Assembly: GCF_943737005.1 (NCBI RefSeq)
Contig: NZ_CALSFU010000009.1
Coordinates: 124,001 to 188,000 of the forward strand
Direction: 5' to 3'
DNA length: 64,000 bases
Source of the DNA: Achromobacter sp. Marseille-Q4962
GTDB taxonomy: Bacteria; Pseudomonadota; Gammaproteobacteria; Burkholderiales; Burkholderiaceae_B
Positions within the stretch are counted from its first letter, which is position 1. Each line of letters begins with the position of its first letter. This document shows, piece after piece, positions 9,186-42,436 of the stretch. A model generated the notes under the pieces. The model did no database searches. It worked only from the letters and a program-made list of their open reading frames with translations, and had not been told where the DNA came from. A program made the position numbers and the translations under genes.

Positions 9186-10814
9186 GTGAATGCCAATCTC
9201 TCCGCAGCAGGGCCCGATCCGGTGAGCGTGGCGCCGGAAATCTTGGCTGAAATCCAGGCCGAGTTCTCGCGCGAATGGCAGCGTCTTTGCGATGATGCCC
9301 GACGCGGAGCGCTTGCGCCGCCGTCCGACCGCCGCTTCGCGGGCAACGCGTGGGCCGCCAACGGCGCGCACCTGCTGCTGGCGCATACCTACCTGCTGTC
9401 CGCCCGCGCCCTGTCGCGCATGGTGGAAGCGGCCCAGGTCAGCGAGCCGCTGCGCGACCGGCTGCGCTTCTCGGTCATGCAATGGGTCGACGCCCTGTCT
9501 CCCGCGAATTTCCTCGCCCTCAACCCCGATGCCCAGCAGTCCGTCGTGGAAAGCGCCGGCCGCGCCCTCACCGAGGGGCTGGCCAACCTGCTGGGCGACG
9601 TGCAGAAGGGCCGCATTACCCAGACCGACGAATCGCAGTTCGAGATCGGCCGCAACGTGGCCGTGACGCCCGGCGAGGTGGTGTACGAAAACCGGCTGTT
9701 CCAGCTCATCCAGTACGCGCCGTCGACCGCCCAGGTCCACGAGCTGCCGCTGGTGATCGTGCCGCCCAACATCAACAAGTTCTACATCCTCGACCTGCAG
9801 CCCGAGAACTCCTTCGTGCGCCATGCGGTGGAGCAGGGCTTCACCGTGTTCATGATCTCGTGGCGCAATCCGATGCCGGGCGACACCGACGGCGTGGACA
9901 GGGCCTCCTGGTCCGACTATCTGGAAGAAGCCGTGCTGCGCGCGCTGGCGGTGGCAAGCGAGATCACGCGGCAGCCGCAGGTCAACGCGCTGGGCTTCTG
10001 CGTGGGCGGCACCATGCTGGCGTCGGCGCTGGCGCTGGCCGAGGCGCGCGGCGAACACCCCGTGGCCTCGCTCACGCTGCTGACGTCGATGCTGGACTTC
10101 CACGACACGGGCATCCTCAAGGTGTTCGTCGACGAAGCGCACGCGCTGCTGCGCGATCACCAGCTCGGTCGCGGCGGCCTGATGCCCGGACGCGACCTGG
10201 CCACCACCTTCTCGTTCCTGCGGCCCAACGAGCTGGTCTGGAACTACGTGGTGGGCAACTACCTCAAGGGCCAGAAGCCGCCGCCCTTCGATCTGCTGTT
10301 CTGGAACGGCGACAGCACCAACCTGCCCGGGCCCTTCTTTTCCTGGTACTTCCGCAATACCTATCTTGAGAACAATCTCAAGGTGCCGGGCCGCGCCCAG
10401 GCCGGAGGCGTGCCGCTGGACCTCACCCGCCTGAAGATGCCCGCGTATCTGTTCGGCTCGCGCGAAGACCACATCGTGCCCTGGATCACGGCCTATGCTT
10501 CCACGCAACTGCTGCGCGGGCCCCAGCGCTTCGTGCTGGGCGCTTCCGGGCACATCGCGGGCGTGATCAATCCGCCCGCCAAAAAGCGCCGCAGCTACTG
10601 GGCGGCAGATGAACTGGAATCGCCCCTGCCGGGCGATCCGAATGCCTGGCTGGCCCGGGCTTCCGAGCATGCCGGAAGCTGGTGGCCCGACTGGGCGCAA
10701 TGGCTGGCCGGCCATTCCGGCAAGAAAGTAAAGGCAAGGTCGAAGTTGGGCAGCGCCCGGTACAGGCCCATCGAGCCTGCCCCCGGGCGATATGTGAAGG
10801 TTCGCGCGGCCTGA
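9186..10814 (+). CDS. phaC: class I poly(3-hydroxyalkanoate) synthase PhaC
   Basis: PhaC polymerises 3-hydroxyacyl-CoA, mainly 3-hydroxybutyryl-CoA, into polyester granules. The 542-residue protein has the N-terminal PhaC domain and an alpha/beta-hydrolase core with the lipase-like box GFCVGG, where Cys272 is the nucleophile. The general-base Asp is seen in SREDHIVPW and the His in GASGHIAGVINPP. The length is slightly below the 560-590 residues usual for class I. The start codon is GTG at 9186 (MNANLSAAG), with AAGGTG just upstream; the nearby ATG is out of frame. The gene is followed by phaB after 73 bases and then by phaR. No thiolase gene phaA is in the window. Confidence 0.95.
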   Translation: MNANLSAAGPDPVSVAPEILAEIQAEFSREWQRLCDDARRGALAPPSDRRFAGNAWAANGAHLLLAHTYLLSARALSRMVEAAQVSEPLRDRLRFSVMQWVDALSPANFLALNPDAQQSVVESAGRALTEGLANLLGDVQKGRITQTDESQFEIGRNVAVTPGEVVYENRLFQLIQYAPSTAQVHELPLVIVPPNINKFYILDLQPENSFVRHAVEQGFTVFMISWRNPMPGDTDGVDRASWSDYLEEAVLRALAVASEITRQPQVNALGFCVGGTMLASALALAEARGEHPVASLTLLTSMLDFHDTGILKVFVDEAHALLRDHQLGRGGLMPGRDLATTFSFLRPNELVWNYVVGNYLKGQKPPPFDLLFWNGDSTNLPGPFFSWYFRNTYLENNLKVPGRAQAGGVPLDLTRLKMPAYLFGSREDHIVPWITAYASTQLLRGPQRFVLGASGHIAGVINPPAKKRRSYWAADELESPLPGDPNAWLARASEHAGSWWPDWAQWLAGHSGKKVKARSKLGSARYRPIEPAPGRYVKVRAA

Positions 10815-10887
10815 GGCCGCGGCCCTCGCGGGCATCGGACCAGAGCGGTTTCAATCAACGAGGCGTCCGTCGCACACAGGAGGAAGT

Positions 10888-11625
10888 ATGAGCGGGAAAC
10901 TGGCTTACGTTACAGGCGGGATGGGCGGTATCGGCACCTCTATTTGCCAGCGCCTGGCCAAGGACGGCTTTCGCGTCGTGGCAGGCTGCGGCCCCAGCCG
11001 CAACTACCAGCAATGGCTGGACGAGCAGGCCGCGCAGGGCTATACGTTCTACGCGTCGGTGGGCAACGTGTCGGACTGGGATTCCACGGTGGCGGCCTTC
11101 GAGAAGGTCACCGCGGAGCACGGTCCGGTGGACGTGCTGGTCAACAACGCGGGCATCACCCGCGATGGCCTGTTCCGGAAAATGAGCGCCGACGATTGGC
11201 GCGCCGTGATCGACACCAACCTCAACAGCCTCTTCAATGTCACCAAGCAGGTCATCGACAGCATGATCGAGCGGCAGTGGGGGCGCATCATCAACATCAG
11301 TTCGGTCAACGGCCAGAAGGGCCAGTTCGGCCAGACCAACTACTCGACGGCCAAGGCCGGCATCCACGGCTTCACCATGGCGCTGGCCCAGGAGGTGGCC
11401 AGCAAGGGCATCACGGTGAACACGGTGTCGCCGGGCTACATCGGCACGGACATGGTCCGGGCCATCCGGCCCGACGTGCTGGAAAAGATCGTGGCCACCA
11501 TCCCCGTGCGCCGCCTGGGCACGCCCGAAGAAATCGCGTCCATTACATCCTGGCTGGCTTCCGACGAATCCGGCTTCGCGACGGGCGCGGATTTTTCGCT
11601 CAACGGCGGCCTGCACATGGGCTGA
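10888..11625 (+). CDS. phaB: acetoacetyl-CoA reductase PhaB
   Basis: This NADPH-dependent enzyme reduces acetoacetyl-CoA to (R)-3-hydroxybutyryl-CoA, the monomer used by PhaC. It is a 245-residue short-chain dehydrogenase with the cofactor motif TGGMGGIGTSICQRL at the N-terminus, NNAG at the end of strand four, the catalytic Ser in NISSVNG and the YxxxK pair in YSTAKAG. The Gly-rich start and the QFGQTNYSTAKAG block are typical of PhaB rather than FabG. A very strong ribosome-binding site (AGGAGGAAGT) precedes the ATG. It lies between phaC and phaR, and probably shares the phaC transcript. Confidence 0.95.
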   Translation: MSGKLAYVTGGMGGIGTSICQRLAKDGFRVVAGCGPSRNYQQWLDEQAAQGYTFYASVGNVSDWDSTVAAFEKVTAEHGPVDVLVNNAGITRDGLFRKMSADDWRAVIDTNLNSLFNVTKQVIDSMIERQWGRIINISSVNGQKGQFGQTNYSTAKAGIHGFTMALAQEVASKGITVNTVSPGYIGTDMVRAIRPDVLEKIVATIPVRRLGTPEEIASITSWLASDESGFATGADFSLNGGLHMG

Positions 11626-18080: not shown

Positions 18081-20651
18081 TCAGCCTTCCTGGATGCGGC
18101 GCGCGATGTGCGCCAGCGCCTCTTCCACCTGGTCCACCAGCACCAGGCACAGGTCGCCCGGGGCGAGCCGTTCCAGGGCGGTGTCGATGGCGAGGAATTC
18201 GCCGTGGATCTCATCGATGCGCCGCGTGCGGCTGGCGTGCGCCAGGCCCTGGCGCAGCAGGGCCAGCACCTCGCCGTCGGCGCGGCCGCGCTGGCACTGG
18301 TCCTGGTACAGCACCACGTCGTCGAACGCCTCGCCCAGGATTTCCGTCTGCATGCGGATGTCTTCGTCGCGGCGGTCGCCCGCTCCGCTGATCACCACGG
18401 AACGCCGTTGCGCCGGCATGGCGTCCACGGCGCGCACCAGCGCCAGGATGGCGTCGGGGTTGTGGCCGTAGTCGGCGATGACGGTGGCTCCGCGGTAGTC
18501 GAACACGTTGAACCTTCCCGGCGCCGTCTGCGCGTCGTTCACGAAGGTGGCGAGCCCCTGGCGGATCACTGTCCAGTCCAGGCCCAGCGCCCAGGCGGCA
18601 GCCACGGAAGCCATGGCGTTCTCCACCTGGAACGCGATGCTGCCGTTGCGGGTGAGCGGAATGGCCGCCAGCGGGAAGCGCTCTTGCGCGGCGCCCTGCG
18701 CCGCCACAATGGCGTCGCCGTCGCGGTACACCACGCGCTGGCCCTGCGCGTGATGCGTGGTCATGACGGGGTGGTGGCGGTCTTCGGCGAAGTAGATGAC
18801 GGAACCGGGGCAGCTCGCGGCCATGTCGGCCACGATGGGGTCGGCGGCGTTGAGCACCGCCGCGCCCGAAGGCTGCACGTGCTGCACGATGACGCGCTTG
18901 ACCACGGCCAGGTCCTCGACCGTGCTGATGTAGCCCAGGCCCAGGTGGTCGCCCATGCCGATGTTGGTGACGACGGCGACGTTGCAGCGGTCGAAGGCCA
19001 GGCCTTCGCGCAGGATGCCGCCGCGCGCGGTCTCGAACACCGCCGCGTCCACGTCGGGATGCATGAGCACGCTGCGGGCGCTGCGCGGGCCGCTGCAGTC
19101 GCCGGTATCGATGCGCCGTCCCGCGATGTAGACGCCGTCGGAGTTGGTCATGCCCACGCGGTTGCCGGCCGTGGCCAGCAGGTGCGCCGTCAGGCGCACG
19201 GTGGTGGTCTTGCCGTTGGTGCCGGCCACCGCCACGACCGGGATGCGGCCGTCCTCGCCGTCGGCATACATGTTGGCGATGATGGCCTCGCCCACGGCGC
19301 GGCCCTTGCCGAACGAGGGGTTCAGGTGCATGCGCAGGCCGGGCGCGGCGTTCACTTCGACCACGCCGCCATGCTGCTCTTCCAGCGGAAGGTGCACGCT
19401 CTCGGCCACCACGTCCACGCCGCAGATGTCCAGCCCGATCATGCGGGCGGCGGCCACGGCGCGCGCCGCCAGCTCGGGATGCACCTCGTCGGTTACGTCG
19501 GTGGCCGAACCGCCGGTGCTCAGGTTGGCGTTGTTGCGCAGGAACACCAGCGTGCCGGGCGGTGGCACCGAGTCGGCCTCGTAGCCCTGTTTCCTGAGCG
19601 TGGCCAGCGCGATGTCGTCGAAACGGATCTTGGTGAGCGACGTGGCGTGGCCGTCGCCGCGCAGCGGGTCGGCATTGACCTGTTCCACCAGCTCGCGGAT
19701 GGTGTGGCGGCCGTCTCCGGTAACCTGCGGCGGATCGCGGCGCGACGCCGCCACCAGCGTGTCGCCCACCACCAGCAGGCGGAAGTCGTGGCCGGGAATG
19801 TAGCGCTCCACGATGACTTCGGAGCTGATCTCCGCGGCGGCCTCGAAAGCCTGGACCACGCGCTCGCGCGTTTCGATGTTCACGGCTACGCCGCGGCCCT
19901 GGCTGCCGTCGCGCGGCTTGACGACCACGGGGCCGCCCAGCTCCTGGGCGGCTTCCCAGGCTTCTTCGGCCGAGCCTACCGAGCGGCCGCGCGGCACGGG
20001 CACGCCCGCCGCTTCCAGCAGCATTTTGGTGAGTTCCTTATCCTGGGCGATGGACTCGGAAATGGCGCTGGTGAGATCGGTTTCGGCGGCCTGGATGCGG
20101 CGCTGCTTGCTGCCCCAGCCGAACTGCACCATGCTGCCCTGCGTGAGCCGGCGGTAGGGGATGTTGCGGGCCACGGCGGCATGGACGATGGCGCCCGTGC
20201 TGGGCCCCAGGCGCACGTCTTCGTCCAGCTCGCGCAGGCGCTTGAGCGCGCCGGCCAGATCGAAGGGCGTATCGTCCAGGGCGGCCCGCACCAGTTCGCA
20301 GGCCAGGTCCATGGCCAGGCGGCCCACTTCTTCCTCGCTGTATTCGACCACGACCTGGAACACGCCGGGCTCGACCGTAGCCGCGGTGCGGCCGAAGGTG
20401 ACGGGGCAGCCGGCGTAGGCCTGCAGGGTCAGCGCCACGATCTGCAGCACGTGCGCGATGGACACCGCGCCCTGGTGGCCATCGGGCCGCAGCACGCCGG
20501 TCTGCGGCAGGCGCGCGCGCAGCCGGGGCTCGAAATCGGGCAGGTTTTCGATGGAGCATTCGGCGTCGGCGCAGGACACGATGGCCTCGATGGCCGTGTT
20601 CTTGCTCCAGAGATTCGGGCCGCGCAGCGCCCGGATACGAGAAACTTCCAT
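18081..20651 (-). CDS. cphA: cyanophycin synthetase (canonical copy)
   Basis: CphA builds cyanophycin, a storage polymer with a poly-aspartate backbone and arginine side chains, using ATP and no ribosome. The 856-residue product has the family's three parts: an N-terminal domain (about 1-160), an ATP-grasp ligase that adds Asp (motif KPRDGSQGRGV near residue 250) and a Mur-ligase-like half that adds Arg. The P-loop AGTNGKTTT has its Lys at residue 481. Family blocks NANLSTGG, EVNAAPGLRMHL and ETARGGILREGL are intact, so this copy looks complete. The ATP-grasp glycine loop reads GSQGRG where many CphA proteins have an NHGRG form. It lies 55 bases after the paralogue, in the same direction. No cyanophycinase gene is in the window. 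Confidence 0.92.
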   Translation of the reverse strand: MEVSRIRALRGPNLWSKNTAIEAIVSCADAECSIENLPDFEPRLRARLPQTGVLRPDGHQGAVSIAHVLQIVALTLQAYAGCPVTFGRTAATVEPGVFQVVVEYSEEEVGRLAMDLACELVRAALDDTPFDLAGALKRLRELDEDVRLGPSTGAIVHAAVARNIPYRRLTQGSMVQFGWGSKQRRIQAAETDLTSAISESIAQDKELTKMLLEAAGVPVPRGRSVGSAEEAWEAAQELGGPVVVKPRDGSQGRGVAVNIETRERVVQAFEAAAEISSEVIVERYIPGHDFRLLVVGDTLVAASRRDPPQVTGDGRHTIRELVEQVNADPLRGDGHATSLTKIRFDDIALATLRKQGYEADSVPPPGTLVFLRNNANLSTGGSATDVTDEVHPELAARAVAAARMIGLDICGVDVVAESVHLPLEEQHGGVVEVNAAPGLRMHLNPSFGKGRAVGEAIIANMYADGEDGRIPVVAVAGTNGKTTTVRLTAHLLATAGNRVGMTNSDGVYIAGRRIDTGDCSGPRSARSVLMHPDVDAAVFETARGGILREGLAFDRCNVAVVTNIGMGDHLGLGYISTVEDLAVVKRVIVQHVQPSGAAVLNAADPIVADMAASCPGSVIYFAEDRHHPVMTTHHAQGQRVVYRDGDAIVAAQGAAQERFPLAAIPLTRNGSIAFQVENAMASVAAAWALGLDWTVIRQGLATFVNDAQTAPGRFNVFDYRGATVIADYGHNPDAILALVRAVDAMPAQRRSVVISGAGDRRDEDIRMQTEILGEAFDDVVLYQDQCQRGRADGEVLALLRQGLAHASRTRRIDEIHGEFLAIDTALERLAPGDLCLVLVDQVEEALAHIARRIQEG

Positions 20652-20706
20652 GGCAGGATTTCCTGTCTAGCATGCGCCGCCCGGCGGGCCGGCGCGCGGA
20701 AAATGG

Positions 20707-23322
20707 TCAGTGTTGCTGGATCCAGCGGCGGACCAGGTCGATGGTGGGGCCGGAGAATGCCTCGTCCGACTGCAGCAGGACGAAATCGCCCGGCTGCATG
20801 GCGCCCAGCGTGGCCTCGATGGCCCGCGCGTGGTCGGGCTCGTCGACGATGGCGCTGGCGCGGCCGCCTTGCTCCGCGCCCCGGCGCAGCAGGGCGCGGG
20901 CTTCGCCCGCCGGCCTGCGGCTGCGCACCGTGGCGTCGTCGTAGAGCACGACCTGGTCGAACGACTGGCCCAGCAGCCTGCCCTGGGCCAGCAGTTCTTC
21001 GTCGCGGCGGTCCGCGCCGGCGGAATAGACCGCCGTGCGGCGCGCGGCCGGGAACTGCCCGATGGCGTCGATGAGGGCGCGCAGCGCCGAACTGTTGTGC
21101 ACGTCGTCCACCACGACGGTGCCGTTGCCGCGCTCGAACAAGGTGAACTGCCAGGGTGCGTCCGCCTGGTCGATGTCGAAAGTCTCGATGCCCGCGCGGA
21201 TCAGCGGAACCGGGATGTCGAGCGCCCAGGCCGCGCCCACGGCGGCCAGCACGTTCTCCACCTGGAACGCCACGCGCCCGCCATGGGTGAGGGGGATGGA
21301 AGCCACGTCGGCCAGCCGTTCCTCGGCGCCGCCCTGGGCGAGCACGATGCCGCCGTCGCGCACGAAGACGGCGCGGCCGCCCTGGCCGCGGTGCCCGTCG
21401 ATGGCAGGCAGGTCGGGCGAAATGCCGAAGAAGATGACGCTGCCATCGCAGAGTTCGGCCATTTCCACCACGCGCGGGTCGCGCGCATTGAGCACGGCCG
21501 CGCCCGTGGGCAGCACCACATCGACCTGCGTGCGGAATACGTTGAACATGCGCTCGGCGTCGTTGACGTCGAAATCGCCCAGGTGGTCCGCGTCGTCGAT
21601 GTTGGTTACCACACCGACGTGGCAGCGGTCGTAGGCCAGGCCCTGGCCCAGGATGACGCCGCTGTCGTTCTCGATGACGGCCGCGTCCACGTTGCGGTTC
21701 ACGAGCAGGCGCGTGGCCGAGTCGAAGTCGGCCCGGTCGCCTTTCTGCACCAGGCGGCGGTCGAGATAGAGTCCTTCGCTGCAGGCCAGCCCCGTGCGCT
21801 TGCCCGACAGGTGCAGCAGCCGCGCCACCAGGCGCGCGACCACGGTCTTGCCGTTGGTGCCGGTGACGCCCACGATAGGTATGCGGCCGTCTTCGCCCGC
21901 GGGAAAAAGATGGTCCACGATGGCGCGGCCCACGGGGCGCGGCTTGCCGTCGGCGGGCTTGAGGTGCATGAGCAGGCCCGGCCCGGCGTTGACCTCCACG
22001 ATGGCGCCGCGCTGTTCCTCGAGCGGGCGCGAGATGTCCTCGGCCACCAGGTCCACGCCCGCGATGTCCAGGCCCACCACGCGGGCGGCCAGGGTCACGG
22101 CAGCGGCCACGTCGGGATGCACGCGGTCGGTCACGTCGAAGGCCACATTGCCCGAGCGCTGCACCAGCACGCGCTGCCCCTGCGCGGGCACGCTGTCCGC
22201 GGCGAGGCCCTGGCGCGCGATCTCGAGGGTGGCGGCCGAATCCAGGCGGACCGGGTTGAGCGGATGGTTTTCCGTGCGGCCGCGGCGCGGGTCGGTGTTG
22301 AGCTGCAGGTCGATCAGCTCTTCCACGGTGGATACGCCGTCGCCGGTGACCCAGGCGGGCTCGCCGGCCGCGGCGGCCACCATGCGGTCGCCCACGACCA
22401 GCAGCCGGTGCTCGTTGCCGGGCACGAAGCGTTCGACGATGACGCCGCTGCCTTCTTCCACGGCGACCCGGTAGGCCGAGACGATTTCCTCGCGCGTGAG
22501 CAGGTTGGTGAATACGCCCCGGCCGTGGTTGCCGTCGTAAGGTTTGATCACCACCGGCAGGCCGATGTCCTGCGCGGCTTCCCAGGCGTCGTCCTCGTTT
22601 TCGACCAGACGGCCTTCCGGCACCGGCACGCCGCAGGTCGCCAGCAGTTCCTTGGTGAGATCCTTGTCGCGCGAAATACCTTCGGCGATGGCGCTGGTGC
22701 GATCGGTTTCCGCGGTCCAGATGCGGCGCTGGCGCGACCCGTAGCCGAACTGCACCAGGTTGCCCTCGAACAGCCGGATATAGGGAATGTCGCGGTCGTC
22801 GGCGGCGTCGACGATGCAGGCCGTGCTGGGGCCCAGGCAGTGCCGGTCCACGAGCCCGCGCAGCCGCGCCACGGCGGCCTCGACGTCGAAGGGCCGGTCT
22901 TCGATGGCGGCCATGACCAGGTTCCGCGCTTCCTGCAGGGCGGTGCGGGTGACCTGTTCCTGCCAGGCGCGCACCACCACCTTGTAGACGCCGCGCGTAG
23001 AGGTTTCGCGCGCCTTGCCGAAGCCGCCGGGAAGGCCGGCCAGGTTCTGCAGCTCCAGCGTGACGTGTTCCAGGATATGGCCCGGCCAGGTGCCTTCTTT
23101 CAGGCGCTGCAGGAATCCGCCGCGCACGCCCGGGCTGCAGCGGTGCTCGATCAGGGTCGGCAGCCAGGCGGTGAGCCGTTCGTAGAAGCCGGGAATGGTG
23201 TTGGAAGGGTAGTCTTCCAGCTCTCCGATATCCACCCAGGCTTCGAGCACGGGGCGATAGGTCCAAATGTTCGGGCCGCGCAAAGCCACGACATCGAGAA
23301 ATTCAATGTCTTTCTTTTTCAT
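20707..23322 (-). CDS. cphA': cyanophycin synthetase paralogue (CphA', diverged Mur-ligase half)
   Basis: This is an 871-residue second cyanophycin synthetase encoded just upstream of cphA. The ATP-grasp loop KPYDGNHGRGV (near residue 260) and the EVNAGPGLLMHL block are well kept, as is the Mur P-loop GTNGKT (Lys492). However, the block that reads ETARGGILREGL in the partner is ENDSGVILGQGL here, and NLSTGG is replaced by SGNVAFD. The arginine-adding half may therefore be altered or specialised. Twin genes of this kind are known in several betaproteobacteria. The name cphA' is used for the second copy; which copy does most of the synthesis is inference. It is transcribed first, and divergently from the ABC exporter gene. 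A frame antisense to it is a GC shadow. Confidence 0.88.
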   Translation of the reverse strand: MKKKDIEFLDVVALRGPNIWTYRPVLEAWVDIGELEDYPSNTIPGFYERLTAWLPTLIEHRCSPGVRGGFLQRLKEGTWPGHILEHVTLELQNLAGLPGGFGKARETSTRGVYKVVVRAWQEQVTRTALQEARNLVMAAIEDRPFDVEAAVARLRGLVDRHCLGPSTACIVDAADDRDIPYIRLFEGNLVQFGYGSRQRRIWTAETDRTSAIAEGISRDKDLTKELLATCGVPVPEGRLVENEDDAWEAAQDIGLPVVIKPYDGNHGRGVFTNLLTREEIVSAYRVAVEEGSGVIVERFVPGNEHRLLVVGDRMVAAAAGEPAWVTGDGVSTVEELIDLQLNTDPRRGRTENHPLNPVRLDSAATLEIARQGLAADSVPAQGQRVLVQRSGNVAFDVTDRVHPDVAAAVTLAARVVGLDIAGVDLVAEDISRPLEEQRGAIVEVNAGPGLLMHLKPADGKPRPVGRAIVDHLFPAGEDGRIPIVGVTGTNGKTVVARLVARLLHLSGKRTGLACSEGLYLDRRLVQKGDRADFDSATRLLVNRNVDAAVIENDSGVILGQGLAYDRCHVGVVTNIDDADHLGDFDVNDAERMFNVFRTQVDVVLPTGAAVLNARDPRVVEMAELCDGSVIFFGISPDLPAIDGHRGQGGRAVFVRDGGIVLAQGGAEERLADVASIPLTHGGRVAFQVENVLAAVGAAWALDIPVPLIRAGIETFDIDQADAPWQFTLFERGNGTVVVDDVHNSSALRALIDAIGQFPAARRTAVYSAGADRRDEELLAQGRLLGQSFDQVVLYDDATVRSRRPAGEARALLRRGAEQGGRASAIVDEPDHARAIEATLGAMQPGDFVLLQSDEAFSGPTIDLVRRWIQQH

Positions 23323-23603
23323 GTTTTAATTTACGTGAAAAGCACGTTGGCACGCGCGGACGCCCCTGTTGCCTGATCGCGGATCGCGTGGAGCTGCGCC
23401 TTGGAAAAAGGATGCCAACGAGTGGGGGATCCCGGATATTCCTAATAAGAAAAATCGGCTGATACTATACGCCGCCTTGCGAGGCGAGAATCGCTGTGTT
23501 GTAAGGAAATCACAGCTTTTCGGCCGCGGGGTTTCCCGGGCGTCCGGGGCGGCGAAAATCGTTGCCGTCCCGAGGATCCAGGCGCGGTTCACCCAGCGTT
23601 CCA

Positions 23604-25895
23604 ATGAAAAAAACACACCAGTTTTCCGGCTCTGCCGATGCGGTACCCGCGCCGTGGGGCGGCGAGCTCAGCGCCCAGTTGGAGCCGGGCGAAATTCTGC
23701 TGGCCTGGCTTGAGACAGACCTCGACGGCAGGCTAAAGTTCCGCGCGGGTTTCGTGGCGGCGACCGATCGCCGGCTGCTGGCGCGCAGCCCCGACGGCAC
23801 GGGCTGGCAATGCTGGCCCTATGGCGCCCAGCTCGCCCTGTCCCTGACCGACCACGCGGGCGCGGCGCAGCTCGAACTGCACGACGACCAGGAGCGCCTG
23901 GCCGCCTGGCGCTTCACGCTGGCGCGCAATCCGGCCGCGCTGCGGCTGCTGGGCCGGTTCGAGGCGCAGCAGGCGCTGCACCTGTCCGGCCAGCGCCTTG
24001 AGGCGGCGCCGCGTCTGTGTCCCACCTGCGGCGGCGCCATTCCGGAAGGGCGGGACGACTGCCCCAACTGCTCCCGGGAATCCGCCGCGCCGCCCTCGAC
24101 CTGGGCGCTGCTGCGGCTGTGGCGCTTCGCCCGGCCGTACCGCATGCCGCTGCTGGCCGGTTTCCTGCTGACCCTGCTGGGCACGGCCGCGACCCTGGTG
24201 CCGCCCTACCTGACCATGCCGCTCATGGACGACGTGCTCATCCCGTTCCAGAACGGCGCGCCCATCGAATACGGCAAAGTGCGGCTCTACCTGGGCGGGC
24301 TGCTGGCCTCGGCGTTCCTGGCGTGGGGACTGGGCTGGGCGCGCACCTACATCCTGGCCTGGGTCAGCGAACGCATCGGCGCCGACCTGCGCACCACCAC
24401 CTACGAGCACCTGCAGCAGCTATCGCTGGAGTATTTCGGCGGCAAGCGCACGGGCGACCTGATATCCCGCATCGGCAGCGAAACCGACCGGATCTGCGTG
24501 TTCCTGTCGTTGCACTTGCTGGATTTCGCCACCGATGTGCTCATGATCGCCATGACCGCGGTGATCCTGGTGTCCATCAATCCGTGGCTGGCGCTGGTCA
24601 CGCTGGTGCCGCTGCCTTTCATCATCTGGATGATCCATTCGGTGCGCGACCGCTTGCGCCATGGATTCGAGAAGGTCGACCGCATCTGGTCGGAAATCAC
24701 CAATGTGCTGGCCGACACCATCCCGGGCATCCGCGTGGTCAAGGCCTTCGCCCAGGAAAAGCGCGAAGTGCAGCGCTTTCGCGAGGCCAACAACCGCAAC
24801 CTGGAAGTGAACGACCGCGTCAATACGGTGTGGTCGCTGTTCTCGCCCACGGTGACGCTGCTGACCGAGATCGGCCTGCTGGTGGTGTGGATCTTCGGCA
24901 TCTGGCAGGTGTCGCAGCACCAGATCACGGTGGGCGTGCTGGCGGCCTTCCTGGCCTACATCGGGCGCTTCTACACGCGCCTGGATTCCATGAGCCGCAT
25001 CGTGTCGGTCACGCAGAAAGCGGCGGCGGGCGCCAAGCGCATCTTCGACATCCTGGACCACGTGTCCAGCGTGCCCGAACCCCAGCGTCCGGCCAGCCTG
25101 TCGCACCTGCACGGGCGCATCGAGCTGCGCGACGTGGGATTCCGCTACGGCAACCGGCAGGTCATCCGCGGGCTGAACCTGGACATCGCGCCCGGCGAAA
25201 TGATCGGCCTGGTGGGGCACAGCGGATCGGGCAAGAGCACCCTCATCAACCTGATCTGCCGCTTCTACGACGTGTCGGAAGGCGCGGTGCTGGTCGACGG
25301 AGCGGACATCCGCAGCCTGCGGGTGGCGGAGTACCGCCGCCACATCGGACTGGTGCTGCAGGAGCCGTTCCTGTTCTTCGGCACCATCGCCGAGAACATC
25401 GCCTACGGCCGGCCCGAGGCCACGCGCGAGGAGATCATCGCCGCGGCGCGCGCGGCCCATGCGCACGAATTCATCCTGCGCCTGCCGCACGGCTACGATT
25501 CGCTGGTCGGCGAGCGCGGACAGGCCCTGTCCGGCGGCGAGCGGCAGCGCATTTCCATCGCGCGGGCGCTGCTCATCGACCCCCGCATCCTTATCCTGGA
25601 CGAGGCCACCTCCTCGGTGGACACCACCACCGAGAAAGAGATCCAGAAAGCCCTGGACAATCTCGTGCGCGGCCGCACCACGATCGCCATCGCCCACCGC
25701 CTGAGCACGCTGCGCAAGGCCGACCGGCTGGTCGTGCTTGACCGCGGGCAGGTGGTGGAAGAGGGGCCGCACGAGGAACTCATGGCGCGCGAAGGCGCCT
25801 ACTACCGGCTCTACCAGGCGCAGGCGCGGCAGGCGGAGGCCGACGCCGAGGCCGCTGCCTCCGCGGGCGGCGAAGACGTGGCCGCCGTGGCCTGA
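23604..25895 (+). CDS. ABC exporter with N-terminal PH-like and zinc-ribbon extension, cyanophycin-locus type
   Basis: This 763-residue half-transporter has an unusual front end. Residues 25-125 read like a small PH-like module (GEILLAWLETD, then GFVAATDRRLLARSPDG and a WP turn). A zinc-ribbon signature follows (CPTC at 139-142, CPNC at 153-156). The exporter part has six membrane helices from about 180 to 455 and one ATPase domain: Walker A GHSGSGKST 538-546, LSGGERQ 642-648, Walker B ILILDEAT 662-669 and switch His698. All catalytic motifs are intact, so it should work as a homodimer. The ATG at 23604 was preferred to one 42 bases upstream; neither has a strong ribosome-binding site. It is divergent from the cphA pair and followed by DUF1854. 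Its cargo is unknown, and a role in cyanophycin metabolism is inferred from position. Confidence 0.85.
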   Translation: MKKTHQFSGSADAVPAPWGGELSAQLEPGEILLAWLETDLDGRLKFRAGFVAATDRRLLARSPDGTGWQCWPYGAQLALSLTDHAGAAQLELHDDQERLAAWRFTLARNPAALRLLGRFEAQQALHLSGQRLEAAPRLCPTCGGAIPEGRDDCPNCSRESAAPPSTWALLRLWRFARPYRMPLLAGFLLTLLGTAATLVPPYLTMPLMDDVLIPFQNGAPIEYGKVRLYLGGLLASAFLAWGLGWARTYILAWVSERIGADLRTTTYEHLQQLSLEYFGGKRTGDLISRIGSETDRICVFLSLHLLDFATDVLMIAMTAVILVSINPWLALVTLVPLPFIIWMIHSVRDRLRHGFEKVDRIWSEITNVLADTIPGIRVVKAFAQEKREVQRFREANNRNLEVNDRVNTVWSLFSPTVTLLTEIGLLVVWIFGIWQVSQHQITVGVLAAFLAYIGRFYTRLDSMSRIVSVTQKAAAGAKRIFDILDHVSSVPEPQRPASLSHLHGRIELRDVGFRYGNRQVIRGLNLDIAPGEMIGLVGHSGSGKSTLINLICRFYDVSEGAVLVDGADIRSLRVAEYRRHIGLVLQEPFLFFGTIAENIAYGRPEATREEIIAAARAAHAHEFILRLPHGYDSLVGERGQALSGGERQRISIARALLIDPRILILDEATSSVDTTTEKEIQKALDNLVRGRTTIAIAHRLSTLRKADRLVVLDRGQVVEEGPHEELMAREGAYYRLYQAQARQAEADAEAAASAGGEDVAAVA

Positions 25896-25941
25896 CGCCC
25901 CGCCGACCTGACCGCCCCAGGACGCAACAACGGAAACCGCC

Positions 25942-26412
25942 ATGACGCTTCCCGCATTCCAACTGCGCCGCAACGCCTTCGGGCGGCTCGTGTTCGAGTC
26001 CGCCGACGGACAGACGTACGACGGCGTGGTCCCGGTGCGCGCATTTCCCATCAGCGACGCCGATCACGGCCTGTCCCTGGTGTCGTCCGAAGGGCGCGAA
26101 CTGCTCTGGATCGACCGCCTGGCCGACCTGCCCGCCCCGGCGCGCGACCTCATCGAGGAAGAGCTTGCCGCCCGCGAGTTCATGCCGGTGATCCAGCGGC
26201 TGGTCAGCGTGTCCACCTACGCCACGCCCAGCGTCTGGGACGTGGAAACCGACAGGGGCTCCACGTCTTTCACGCTGCGCGGCGAGGAAGACATCCGGCG
26301 CCTGCACGGGCAGACGCTGCTCATCGCCGACAGCCACGGCATTTTCTACCTGATCCGCGACGCGCTTTCGCTGGACCGCCACAGCCGCAAGCTGCTGGAC
26401 CGCTTTCTTTGA
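25942..26412 (+). CDS. DUF1854 protein of the cyanophycin locus
   Basis: This is a 156-residue soluble protein with no signal peptide. The sequence has the DUF1854 layout: an N-terminal strand pair (FQLRRNAFGRLVFESADG), the block VPVRAFPISDADHGLSLVS, GRELLWIDRLADLP, and a central EFMPVIQRLVSVSTYATPSVWDV-like region cut by a loop. The end is GEEDIRRLHGQTLLIADSHGIFYL. The family has no established biochemical role. It starts 46 bases after the ABC exporter gene, on the same strand, and its stop lies only 4 bases from the stop of the convergent next gene. The ABC exporter plus DUF1854 pair beside cphA genes suggests that the two act together. Confidence 0.82.
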   Translation: MTLPAFQLRRNAFGRLVFESADGQTYDGVVPVRAFPISDADHGLSLVSSEGRELLWIDRLADLPAPARDLIEEELAAREFMPVIQRLVSVSTYATPSVWDVETDRGSTSFTLRGEEDIRRLHGQTLLIADSHGIFYLIRDALSLDRHSRKLLDRFL

Positions 26413-26416
26413 AGCT

Positions 26417-27553
26417 TCAGCCTGCGCGCCGCTTGAAGGGCGTGTGCGCTTCCAGCTCGCCCAGGTAGCCGGCCACGGCAGCGGTTTCCCGTTCCAGGAA
26501 GTCTTCGATCGCGGCGGCGAAGCGCCGGTCGGCGATCCAGTGCGCCGACCAGGTAGGCGTGGGCAGCAGGCCGCGCGCCATCTTGTGCTCGCCTTGCGCG
26601 CCGCCCTCGAAGCGCGCCAGGCCGTGCGCGATGCAATAGGCGATGGACTGCAGGTAGCAGGTTTCGAAGTGCAGGCCGGGCACGTACTCGGCGGCGCCCC
26701 AGTAGCGTCCATACAGCGCGTCGCCGCCGGCGAGGTTCAGGGCTGCCGCCACGGGCTGCTCGCCCCGGCAGGCCAGGATCAGCACGAAGGCGTCGGGGTC
26801 CGCGCGGAAGGCGCGGGCGAAGAATTCGCGGCTGAGGTAGGGCGGGTTGCCGTGGTTGAAATAGGTGCCCTGGTAGCAGGCATAGAAAAAGTCCAGCTCG
26901 GCCGGTCCGATCTGCGCGCCGCGCAGCCAGCGGAACGCGAGGCCGGCGGCCGCCACTTTCTTGCGGTCCTGCCGGATCTTCTTGCGCTTGTCGTGGCTCA
27001 TGGCGGCCAGGAAGGCGTCCAGGTCGGCGTAGCCCGCGTTGCGCCAATGGAACTGCACGCTTTCGCGCAGCAGGAACCCGGCGCTTTCCAGCGCGAGCCG
27101 GTCGGCCTCGGCGGGAAACAGCACGTGCAGCGAGGACACGCCCGTCTCTTCGGCGAAGGCGGCCATGGCATGCGCCAGGCGCAGGCGGTCGGCGTCCGAG
27201 GCGGCCAGCAGGCGGGGCCCCGTCACCGGCGTGAAGGGCACCGCGCACAGCAGCTTGGGGTAATAGCGCAACCCGTGGCGCTCGAAGGCGTCCGCCCAGG
27301 CGTAGTCGAACACGTACTCGCCGCGCGAATGCGATTTCAGGTAGAGGGGGCAGGCGGCCGCCAGGGTGTCGCCGCGCCACAGCGCCAGGTAGTGCGGCGA
27401 CCAGCCGCTGCGCGGCGAGGCGCAGCCCGTGTCGTGCAGCGCGCACAGGAACGCATGCTTGAGAAAGGGCTGGTCGCCCGCCAGCGCGTCCCAGGCGCGG
27501 GCGTCGATGCGGCGCAGGTCGGTTTCCAGGGTCAGGCGCGGGGAGGAGTCCAT
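26417..27553 (-). CDS. COG3146 acyltransferase-like protein (FemAB/GNAT fold)
   Basis: This is a 378-residue protein of the DUF482/COG3146 group, often annotated as peptidoglycan biosynthesis or GNAT-related. The family blocks are clear: FLKHAFLCALHDTGCASPRSGW near the start, HSRGEYVFDYAWADAFERHG, PVTGPRLL, then DKRKKIRQDRKKV, GNPPYLSREFF and GLARFEGGAQGEHKMARG with PTPTWSAHWI near the end. It is presumed to transfer an aminoacyl or acyl group, but no substrate is established. The start at 27553 (MDSSPRLTLE) was chosen over a longer frame without signal. It converges tightly on DUF1854 and is divergent from the DUF455 gene. Confidence 0.82.
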   Translation of the reverse strand: MDSSPRLTLETDLRRIDARAWDALAGDQPFLKHAFLCALHDTGCASPRSGWSPHYLALWRGDTLAAACPLYLKSHSRGEYVFDYAWADAFERHGLRYYPKLLCAVPFTPVTGPRLLAASDADRLRLAHAMAAFAEETGVSSLHVLFPAEADRLALESAGFLLRESVQFHWRNAGYADLDAFLAAMSHDKRKKIRQDRKKVAAAGLAFRWLRGAQIGPAELDFFYACYQGTYFNHGNPPYLSREFFARAFRADPDAFVLILACRGEQPVAAALNLAGGDALYGRYWGAAEYVPGLHFETCYLQSIAYCIAHGLARFEGGAQGEHKMARGLLPTPTWSAHWIADRRFAAAIEDFLERETAAVAGYLGELEAHTPFKRRAG

Positions 27554-27653
27554 GCGTGAATGATAAAGTCTGTGCTGGCGACGCAGCCCGAGGGCGCGCG
27601 CCGCGGGCGGCCCGCGAGGTGTACCGGGCCCCTCTGTTTCTGGAAACCTCATC

Positions 27654-28484
27654 ATGCATAGCCGTTTTTCCGTGCCGGCCGGGGCCGGCGGCCAGGCGAC
27701 GTGCCTGCGCGAACGGGCGCTGGCCGCGCTCGCGGCCGGGCCATGGCCGGACAAGCTGGCCGCGGTGCGCGCCATCGCCGACGACGCCAGGGTGGACGCC
27801 GCGCGAGAACTCGCCGCCGCCGCGCCGCTGCCGGGACGCCCGGCGCGTCCCGAGCTGGTGTCGCCGGCCCAGGTGAAACAGCGGTCCATGGCCACGGTGG
27901 AAGGGCGGGCGGCCCTGCTGCACGCGCTGGCCCACATCGAGTTCAATGCCGTGAACCTGGCGTTGGACATCGTCTGGCGCTTTTCCGGCATGCCCGAGGC
28001 GTTCTACCGGGACTGGCTGCGCGTGGCGCGCGAGGAAGCCCACCATTTCGACCTGCTCAACCGGCGCCTGGCCGCGCTGGGATACGCCTACGGCGACTTT
28101 CCCGCGCATAACGGGCTCTGGGAAATGGCCGAGAAAACCCGCGGCGACCTGCTGGCGCGGCTGGCGCTGGTGCCGCGCACCCTGGAAGCGCGCGGACTGG
28201 ATGCCTCGCCGCTCATCCGCGACAAGCTGGCGGGGGCGGGCGACGCCGAAAGCGCGGCCATCCTGGACATCATCCTGCGCGACGAGATCGGTCACGTCGC
28301 CATCGGCAACCGCTGGTACCGGCACCTGTGCGCGCAGGCCGGCGCCGACCCGGTGGCCTGCTATGCCGAGCTTGCGCAGCGCTATGGCGCGCCGCGCCTG
28401 CGCGGCCCCTTCAACCTGGAGGCGCGCCGCGCGGCGGGCTTCGACGAGGCCGAGCTGGCTGCGCTGACCGCCCCGGCCGCCTGA
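27654..28484 (+). CDS. DUF455 ferritin-like protein
   Basis: This is a 276-residue protein of the DUF455/COG2833 family, which has a ferritin-like four-helix fold. Likely metal ligands appear as ALAHIEFNAVNLALD, REEAHHFDLLNRRL and RDEIGHVAIGNRWY, giving the Glu and His pairs expected for a di-iron site. The true function of the family is unknown; some members sit near tRNA-modifying or sulfur genes. The start at 27654 gives MHSRFSVPAG. The stop is followed by the MOSC gene after 5 bases, so the two are co-transcribed. Confidence 0.82.
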   Translation: MHSRFSVPAGAGGQATCLRERALAALAAGPWPDKLAAVRAIADDARVDAARELAAAAPLPGRPARPELVSPAQVKQRSMATVEGRAALLHALAHIEFNAVNLALDIVWRFSGMPEAFYRDWLRVAREEAHHFDLLNRRLAALGYAYGDFPAHNGLWEMAEKTRGDLLARLALVPRTLEARGLDASPLIRDKLAGAGDAESAAILDIILRDEIGHVAIGNRWYRHLCAQAGADPVACYAELAQRYGAPRLRGPFNLEARRAAGFDEAELAALTAPAA

Positions 28485-42047: not shown

Positions 42048-42436
42048 TGGTGGAGCCGGGGGGAATTGAACCCCCGTCCGCAAGCCCTCCGCAACCAGTT
42101 CTACATGCGTAGTCGGCCTATTTGGATTTAACCCTGGACTTAGCCAACCGACAGGCCGGACCAGGGCGATTCACGTAATTTAAGCCTGAACCGTGTGACC
42201 CCAGCGCAGACCGATTCCTTGTAAATGTCGCTGCTGCGGTTCGAGGGTTGCCCCCCTGGGAAGTTGCCTTCCCCCGCCTGACCCAAGGACAGATCAGTGC
42301 AGCGGCTCACCGATTAAGCGGCGAGAGCGAAACGCTCGTCGTTGGCGTTTGTAGTGTTCCAGTGGATTTACGAGCTTACTGGTGCTCGGCATGCCCTGAG
42401 TTGTTTCGCGACCCACGTCGAATCCGGATCGGCCCC
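42048..42436 (-). ncRNA. ssrA: transfer-messenger RNA (tmRNA)
   Basis: tmRNA rescues stalled ribosomes and adds a degradation tag. The 389-base gene lies on the minus strand. The 5' end GGGGCCGATCCGGATTCGAC and the 3' end (TTCAATTCCCCCCGGCTCCA, then CCA) form the tRNA-Ala-like domain with an encoded CCA. The tag reading frame lies at 42314-42346, decoding as ANDERFALAA followed by TAA, the tag type of Bordetella. Pseudoknot-forming GC blocks fill the rest. A TACAAT promoter element is placed just upstream and a strong terminator just downstream. Confidence 0.96.

Follow-up and report, generated by a model that had tools for sequence, protein, structure and literature searches.

A candidate cyanophycinase-free system in Achromobacter: two complementary cyanophycin synthetases next to an exporter and a DUF1854 protein

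The window analysed here is a stretch of 64,000 nucleotides from Achromobacter sp. Marseille-Q4962 (contig NZ_CALSFU010000009.1, positions 124,001 to 188,000), and all coordinates are counted from its first letter. At 18081 to 26412 it carries two cyanophycin synthetase genes (cphA and cphA', with the products CphA and CphA') and, divergent from them, the genes of an ATP-binding cassette (ABC) exporter and of a DUF1854 protein. All four open reading frames (ORFs) were located at the positions given by the original prediction, a reading made from the letters alone. G and L numbers are our labels for genomes and loci used in comparison, and papers are cited by PMC identifier, each for the passages of it at hand. 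The features of the locus are as follows.

18081..20651, minus strand: cphA (P0001, 856 amino acids), a full-length synthetase with aspartate pocket and Arg-ligating M domain present and the N-domain zinc site gone

20707..23322, minus strand: cphA' (P0002, 871 amino acids), a paralogue with the zinc endo-cyanophycinase site present and the aspartate pocket gone; its M domain is altered, and the P-loop and the D585/H586 equivalents remain

23065..23139, minus strand: the C-x19-HxxEH motif of CphA' (C62, H82, E85 and H86 of P0002), placed by alignment, with its function taken from PMC9262961

23323..23603: divergent promoter region common to both gene pairs; two blocks of it, at about 23346-23367 and 23412-23471, are conserved among Achromobacter relatives

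23604..25895, plus strand: ABC exporter (763 amino acids from the ATG at 23604; NF052233)

24018..24071, plus strand: zinc-ribbon-like C-x2-C-x10-C-x2-C in the N-terminal cytosolic domain of the exporter, found across the family, not universally

24150..24971, plus strand: transmembrane domain of the exporter (PF00664 match), which includes D307, D311, E422 and R455; R459, D461 and R465 lie just beyond the end of the match

25167..25613, plus strand: ATPase domain of the exporter (PF00005), with Walker A, signature and Walker B present

25942..26412, plus strand: DUF1854 protein (P0004, 156 amino acids; NF052234, PF08909)

Both synthetases exceed the curated cut-offs of the cyanophycin synthetase models TIGR02068 (990 bits for P0001 and 906 bits for P0002, cut-off 850) and NF010623 (1269 and 1300 bits, cut-off 877). 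The prediction of two tandem synthetases holds in this respect, and is modified in that the two are complementary paralogues rather than copies. The exporter (P0003) carries the Pfam domains ABC_membrane and ABC_tran and scores 1434.5 bits against NF052233 (cut-off 880), over model positions 6 to 755 of 766, and P0004 scores 236 bits against NF052234 (cut-off 150) and 176 bits against PF08909 (cut-off 26.8); P0003 and P0004 are covered almost end to end by NF052233 and NF052234, respectively. Model position 6 of NF052233 aligns to residue 20 of the longer exporter frame, and the ATG at 23604, which is in accord with the model, is taken as the likely start. The divergent starts are 281 bases apart and the exporter is separated from the DUF1854 gene by 46 bases.

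Co-inheritance was evaluated in an order sample (150 genomes), a class sample (185) and a phylum sample (299). These samples overlap, and in their union each genome was taken once. The exporter was sought genome-wide in the order sample, and in the class and phylum samples the exporter-DUF1854 pair was scored by DUF1854, the exporter then being seen adjoining it in two genomes only (G091 and G503). In the order sample DUF1854 (NF052234) was found in 50 genomes, the exporter in 51 and CphA above cut-off in 55, and the sets are nested, as all genomes with DUF1854 have the exporter and all genomes with the exporter have CphA. The exporter is present in 51 of the 55 genomes with CphA and in none of the 95 without (Fisher p 8.6e-36, uncorrected for descent). 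A better measure is given by the families: 24 contain the exporter, 13 of these also hold exporter-less genomes, and in 13 of 13 the presence or absence of CphA, exporter and DUF1854 coincides in each genome. The sole exporter without DUF1854 (G305) reaches the end of its contig. A doubtful case is G319, which has no exporter and was counted as lacking CphA on a partial CphA-like match of 581 bits, below the cut-off.

The original prediction tied the exporter to cyanophycin synthetase, and the nested distribution in the order sample bears this out. Rather than occurring mostly without cphA, DUF1854 is accompanied by CphA in 50 of 50 genomes of the order sample, in three of six genomes of the class sample (absent in G001, G043 and G184) and, using PF08909, in 16 of 16 genomes of the phylum sample. 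The CphA-less genomes G184 (L129, L236) and G001 (L130) contain intact divergent exporter-DUF1854 pairs, and G043 (L007, L237) contains a DUF1854 remnant only. A DUF1854 match was also seen in Sulfolobus acidocaldarius among the control genomes, and none in a plasmid collection. ATP-grasp and Mur-ligase-like proteins scoring about 210-580 bits against the CphA model, below its cut-off and some of them clustered, were observed in G319, G324 and G211, and are possibly other peptide polymer or ligase systems.

The arrangement is conserved as well. Within the order sample the pair lies at most 1.3 kb from a cphA gene in 47 of 50 genomes, and where exporter and CphA' share one stretch (48 genomes) they are divergent in 46 and on the same strand in 2. 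A second set, the named loci, consists of the best 80 of at least 562 confirmed DUF1854 stretches (from at least 596 candidates) and partly overlaps the order sample, with at least three contigs in common (L160/G219, L172/G263, L195/G195). In 65 of the 80 named loci the genes of CphA and CphA' share a strand, with those of exporter and DUF1854 on the other. Four loci have the whole set on the same strand (order exporter-DUF1854-CphA'-CphA), an arrangement also seen in two of the 50 order-sample genomes (G246 and G294). The remaining 11 are variants, and in 9 of these the stretch is truncated by a contig end. CphA lies in two frames in L195, and single genes appear interrupted in three loci (CphA in L077 of G195, CphA' in L128 of G091 and the exporter in L091 of G234), which may reflect assembly errors or recent loss.

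In the 61 named loci from outside Achromobacter and Bordetella, each of the four genes was matched in 58 to 61. Flanking ORFs of the window matched in at least eight loci were found exclusively in the 19 Achromobacter/Bordetella loci and in 0 of the other 61. Genes flanking the cluster in the window include, on one side, those for PhzF-like, BON and CsbD proteins and, on the other, those for FemAB-like, DUF455 and MOSC proteins. The FemAB-like ORF (26417-27991), on the opposite strand immediately downstream of DUF1854, is present in 18 of these 19 loci and 0 of 61 others. The prediction that the genes form one functional unit is supported, the linkage being far beyond chance in the order sample and the flanking genes not conserved outside close relatives, and the exporter-DUF1854 pair as chance neighbours was rejected. 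The two promoter blocks are almost invariant across 18 aligned Achromobacter/Bordetella relatives and may co-regulate both operons. One of them includes a GGCAC element, the spacing of which does not fit a sigma-54 promoter.

The same data bear on the possibility that common descent or a mobile element keeps the genes together and that they share no function. Most members do come from one order, and a composite transposon has been proposed for a similar cluster (PMC10687191). However, the agreement in all 13 mixed families, the lack of conserved neighbours beyond the four genes outside the close relatives of the window, and the survival of the association both over a separation of about 0.77 Mb (G329) and in another class (G503) make such hitch-hiking highly improbable, and we disfavour it. 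Pfam detected no transposase in the 10 ORFs tested on the flanks, a match of any kind being obtained for 6, and on this scope a composite transposon in this window was rejected.

The cyanophycinase model TIGR02069 has no match in the whole genome of the window (G000), in line with the prediction. That prediction also reported no isoaspartyl dipeptidase, and none occurs among the Pfam matches of 40 non-cluster ORFs of the window (10 scanned at an expectation value, E, of 1e-6 and 30 at 1e-20), the remaining ORFs and the rest of the genome not having been searched. For the other genomes, a cyanophycinase was called strong if it scored more than 200 bits to TIGR02069, a line set after seeing a gap between 164 and 214 bits. 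In the union of the three samples a strong cyanophycinase is present in 12 of 12 CphA-containing genomes without the pair, versus 1 of 58 with it (p 1.2e-12). The four genomes of the order sample with CphA and no exporter (G225, G269, G296, G310) all have one, scoring 233 to 251 bits; it shares the contig of cphA in three of them and lies on a different one in G269. The corresponding counts in the class sample are 4 of 4 genomes with CphA and no DUF1854 (in G049 on a different contig) versus 0 of 3 with both. In the phylum sample they are 4 of 4 without DUF1854, and none of six newly met genomes with the pair has any cyanophycinase. One genome, G239 (L092, L127), holds both kinds of locus, a split CphA/CphA' with the pair as well as a locus where a strong cyanophycinase accompanies two additional cphA genes, and offers a natural comparison of the two within one cell.

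The alternation agrees with a published survey (PMC10206079, Table 2), where beta-proteobacteria make up 903 of 1614 complete genomes with CphA1 and cyanophycinase is found in 2.8% of them, as opposed to 70-100% in every other clade listed. In the main text of that survey 'DUF' is absent, and in the passages at hand its two uses of 'transporter' concern scavenging loci.

The active sites of the synthetases were compared in an alignment with SuCphA1 (chain 7lg5/7lgj) as reference, the numbering being verified at C59, H79, E82, H83, H267, D585 and H586. The residue set comprised 9 canonical (including SuCphA1), 48 CphA (that of the window among them) and 52 CphA' rows. From L077 two pieces of a broken CphA were dropped, which reduced the CphA rows from 50 to 48, as were canonical candidates with a best stretch of at most 600 bits, including the other cphA of L127 (577) and that of L124. 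Residues were also counted in the named loci (70 CphA and 73 CphA' after four short rows were dropped), a set rich in Achromobacter and Cupriavidus. For P0001 the CphA1 residues tested were the aspartate pocket (R323, N394, S396, R458) and D585/H586 of the M domain.

The N-domain zinc site cleaves cyanophycin to primers, and its motif C-x19-HxxEH occurs in 83% of CphA1 (PMC9262961). This site is present in 8 of 9 canonical rows, 0 of 48 CphA and 52 of 52 CphA' (named loci: 0/70 CphA, 73/73 CphA'). The aspartate pocket shows the reverse distribution among the paralogues, with 9 of 9 canonical rows, 48 of 48 CphA and 0 of 52 CphA' (named loci: 70/70 and 0/73). The ATP core with R309 is retained in all (9/9, 48/48) apart from one CphA' (51/52), while D585/H586 of the M domain are found in 9/9, 48/48 and 7/52, respectively, and in 70/70 CphA and 52/73 CphA' of the named loci. 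Among the 52 CphA' rows R323 is replaced by Gly in 50 and R458 by Leu in 49, residues 396 and 398 are deleted in 52, and N394 is retained in 46. In most of them the P-loop is changed or the end of the M domain is missing, whereas the CphA' of Achromobacter and Cupriavidus retain a fuller M domain, that of the window (P0002) being full length with GTNGKT present.

CphA and CphA' form sister clades separate from canonical CphA1 (support 99/96; random 22 of 48 and 22 of 52 rows), and appear to have arisen by a single duplication with complementary losses afterwards. We find a division of labour between them very probable. Complementary loss in two synthetases was not found in the openly licensed papers searched and appears to be an addition to what is known. 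The replacements in CphA', uniform and next to a conserved ATP site, speak for a changed task rather than decay. One such task would be that CphA' became, after duplication, a processing subunit which cleaves cyanophycin to short oligomers and joins the chain end to a nucleophile other than aspartate, either a cap or another chain, the capped oligomers being exported by the ABC-DUF1854 pair. This would follow from the retention of the residues for ATP and the chain end (K220, K261, R309 and H267) together with the loss of the carboxylate-binding arginines (R323G, R458L) and of the Asp loop, and we consider it speculative and rather unlikely. If true, most beta-proteobacterial 'cyanophycin synthetases' would serve no intracellular storage.

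An undivided relative was found in another class, in a single genome (G503; 93% complete, 8% contamination). Here exporter and DUF1854 adjoin one CphA with zinc site, aspartate pocket and M-domain residues all intact, Gln at position 267 and Val replacing Thr at 496, the contig ending within the gene. Neither a second CphA, at the threshold applied, nor a cyanophycinase match was found in this genome. In a second tree (random 18 and 18 of the 48 and 52 rows; canonical rows L127 and L214 dropped) its G domain is nested in the clade of split enzymes (100/99), with weak placement inside (88/72). This suggests that the association of exporter and DUF1854 predates the split of the synthetase.

For the exporter, 55 rows were aligned, and 52 were used as CphA-linked after leaving out L122 (contig end) and two CphA-less rows. 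The membrane and ATPase parts are 78% identical to G091 and 68% to G503, the N-terminal domain 35% and 34%. Of the 55 rows 46 show the zinc-ribbon pattern, and one of the nine misses, L086, has an over-long frame. Seven ionisable residues that lie within the membrane helices or next to them (D307, D311, E422, R455, R459, D461, R465) are kept in at least 92% of the 52 exporters and all seven are kept in G503. The same positions are uncharged in two intact exporters from CphA-less genomes, and in TM288 (3qf4_B), as aligned, they are Q, G, N, Q, P, N and N. An Asp-Arg chain would be a fitting cargo for a charged pathway, as would other charged molecules. Neither the N-terminal profile of the exporter (best E 0.43, with a VPS36 stretch at 0.76) nor the DUF1854 sequence (best E 0.09) has a significant match among solved structures, and the two are unrelated by profile comparison (probability 0.1%).

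An alignment of 18 DUF1854 members has the invariant residues P38, E56, P85, W102, T106, G109, L115, G137, D149, S152 and R158 (numbering of the first row), with no obvious catalytic pattern. This bears on the idea that exporter and DUF1854 act at the membrane in breakdown or control of the polymer, DUF1854 being a hydrolase or regulator, and replace cyanophycinase with no route of export. The almost perfect alternation with cyanophycinase speaks for this idea. We nevertheless regard it as unlikely, in view of the missing catalytic pattern and of the transport ATPase motifs, which are intact in the exporter.

Alternatively, the exporter could balance pools by moving small molecules (arginine, aspartate or the beta-Asp-Arg dipeptide), with the polymer as an ordinary internal reserve and CphA' as a slow cutter in place of cyanophycinase. 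The endo-cyanophycinase site complete in every CphA' row fits this, the charged residues of the membrane region would equally suit a small zwitterion, and IadA or IaaA is present in 70.9% of beta-proteobacterial CphA1 genomes (PMC10206079, Table 2), so that breakdown of the dipeptide is often available. However, the N domain that has been studied cuts slowly, and its main products are tetramers instead of dipeptides (PMC9262961); in wild-type Ralstonia eutropha, which has two synthetase homologues, cyanophycin was not seen (PMC11362209, citing Adames 2013, strain H16). We consider the small-molecule explanation credible and on balance doubtful. The absence of cyanophycin in R. eutropha fits export, and silent genes would fit too.

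The reading we put forward is a cyanophycinase-free system in which a split synthetase feeds a dedicated ABC exporter and DUF1854, and our confidence in it as a whole is evenly poised. CphA would elongate the chain by adding Asp and Arg. The zinc endo-cyanophycinase of CphA' would cut chains into primers for CphA in the cell; an N domain supplied in trans does prime a primer-dependent CphA1 (PMC9262961). The G domain of CphA' would keep its ATP site and no longer hold the aspartate substrate in the known way. The polymer, or short oligomers cut by CphA', would then be passed to the exporter, with DUF1854 as its presumed partner, and across the inner membrane, instead of being turned over by cyanophycinase. 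That the exporter acts on a cyanophycin product is probable in our judgement, and for outward movement of oligomer or polymer we see the chances as about equal either way.

Several observations weigh against this proposal. Transport, cargo and direction are proposed from sequence alone, and the comparison with exporters from CphA-less genomes consists of two proteins. The pair is apart from cphA in 3 of 50 order-sample genomes (G218, 7.7 kb; G298, about 13 kb; G329, about 0.77 Mb), both nevertheless being retained in all three, and in the named locus L187 (20 kb) no cphA is found within about 10 kb of the pair. In the class sample 3 of 185 genomes have DUF1854 and no CphA, the proteins being divergent and below the family cut-off, which implies that the family extends beyond cyanophycin. 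By the curated cut-off of the cyanophycinase model, 4 of 51 exporter-containing genomes of the order sample have a match, as do 4 of 4 exporter-less genomes with CphA. Three of the former (G205, G251, G285) have weak unlinked matches of 136 to 164 bits, and G239 has a strong cyanophycinase adjoining a second cphA locus about 1.9 Mb from the exporter locus. The M domain of the CphA' in the window keeps its P-loop and D585/H586, like 52 of 73 CphA' of the named loci, and is therefore not clearly dead. His267, which matters in two studied enzymes, is Gln in 46 of 48 CphA rows; in the named loci no CphA (0 of 70) and every CphA' (73 of 73) has His there. Gln267 is also found in 1 of 9 canonical rows and in G503; it is perhaps tolerated, and the undivided enzyme of G503 suggests that it is compatible with function.

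How beta-proteobacteria recover or use cyanophycin has been left open (PMC5178258, citing a 2002 survey). For this gap, a split synthetase with a dedicated exporter is a concrete and testable candidate standing in the place of cyanophycinase, and suggests a polymer that is moved rather than simply stored. Counts of cphA in sludge or soil bacteria should not be taken as nitrogen storage unless the kind of locus is checked.

Outside the cluster, genes for a PhaC-type polyhydroxybutyrate polymerase and then a short-chain dehydrogenase (phaB-like) lie at 9186-11625, about 7 kb from cphA, which places carbon-storage genes near the cyanophycin genes. The sole tRNA or tmRNA gene found by ARAGORN in the window is a tmRNA gene at 42048-42436 on the minus strand, with the tag ANDERFALAA.

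Among known systems, canonical CphA1 with cyanophycinase has the chemistry residues of the G and M domains in common with CphA. It differs from the split pair in carrying both sites in one chain (zinc 8/9, Asp pocket 9/9) and in having a cyanophycinase in the genome. A cyanophycin utilisation (scavenging) locus, made of cyanophycinase, isoaspartyl dipeptidase and a transporter with no CphA, does not fit, as CphA is present and the genome has no cyanophycinase. CphA' has no loop 396-399, whereas chains 8fxh and 7ta5, which we take to be CphA2, keep this stretch at CphA1-like length (lengths alone were compared). The M domain of CphA2 has neither P-loop nor lid, and on this point the CphA' proteins are mixed, P0002 having GTNGKT and its full length and most of the 52 rows either an altered P-loop or a lost end. 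CphA2, the beta-Asp-Arg polymerase, has lost the end of the M domain (PMC9427784), as have many CphA', and lacks the N-domain zinc motif (PMC9262961) that CphA' has; with this motif present in P0002, the identification of CphA' as CphA2 was rejected. Peptidase-containing or HlyB-type exporters are likewise half-transporters with an extra N-terminal cytosolic domain; unlike these, the exporter described here has no Pfam C39 peptidase match, and its N-terminal domain varies, most members having a zinc ribbon there.

To call the system poorly described, as the original prediction did, is too strong. Conversely, that prediction did not include the division of labour of the synthetases or the alternation with cyanophycinase. 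NF052233 and NF052234 of NCBIfam, named as 'cyanophycin metabolism-associated' ABC transporter and DUF1854 protein, correspond to P0003 and P0004, and gene names, co-location and the beta-proteobacterial lack of cyanophycinase were already known (PMC5178258, PMC10206079, PMC10687191). The models name the association; a mechanism and the link to the absence of cyanophycinase are not in them. No paper on DUF1854 or on these cyanophycin-associated families was found among the openly licensed papers searched, which is weak evidence of absence, and neither were the one-to-one alternation of the pair with cyanophycinase and the undivided relative. The closest described case is the 'Group 1' cphA cluster of activated-sludge bacteria (PMC10687191, 2023), which likewise has two cphA genes, an ABC transporter and no cphB. 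In the passages at hand that cluster has flanking insertion sequences, is described as a possible transposon and comes with no mention of DUF1854, whereas the tested flanks of the present locus contain no transposase and its two cphA genes are complementary.

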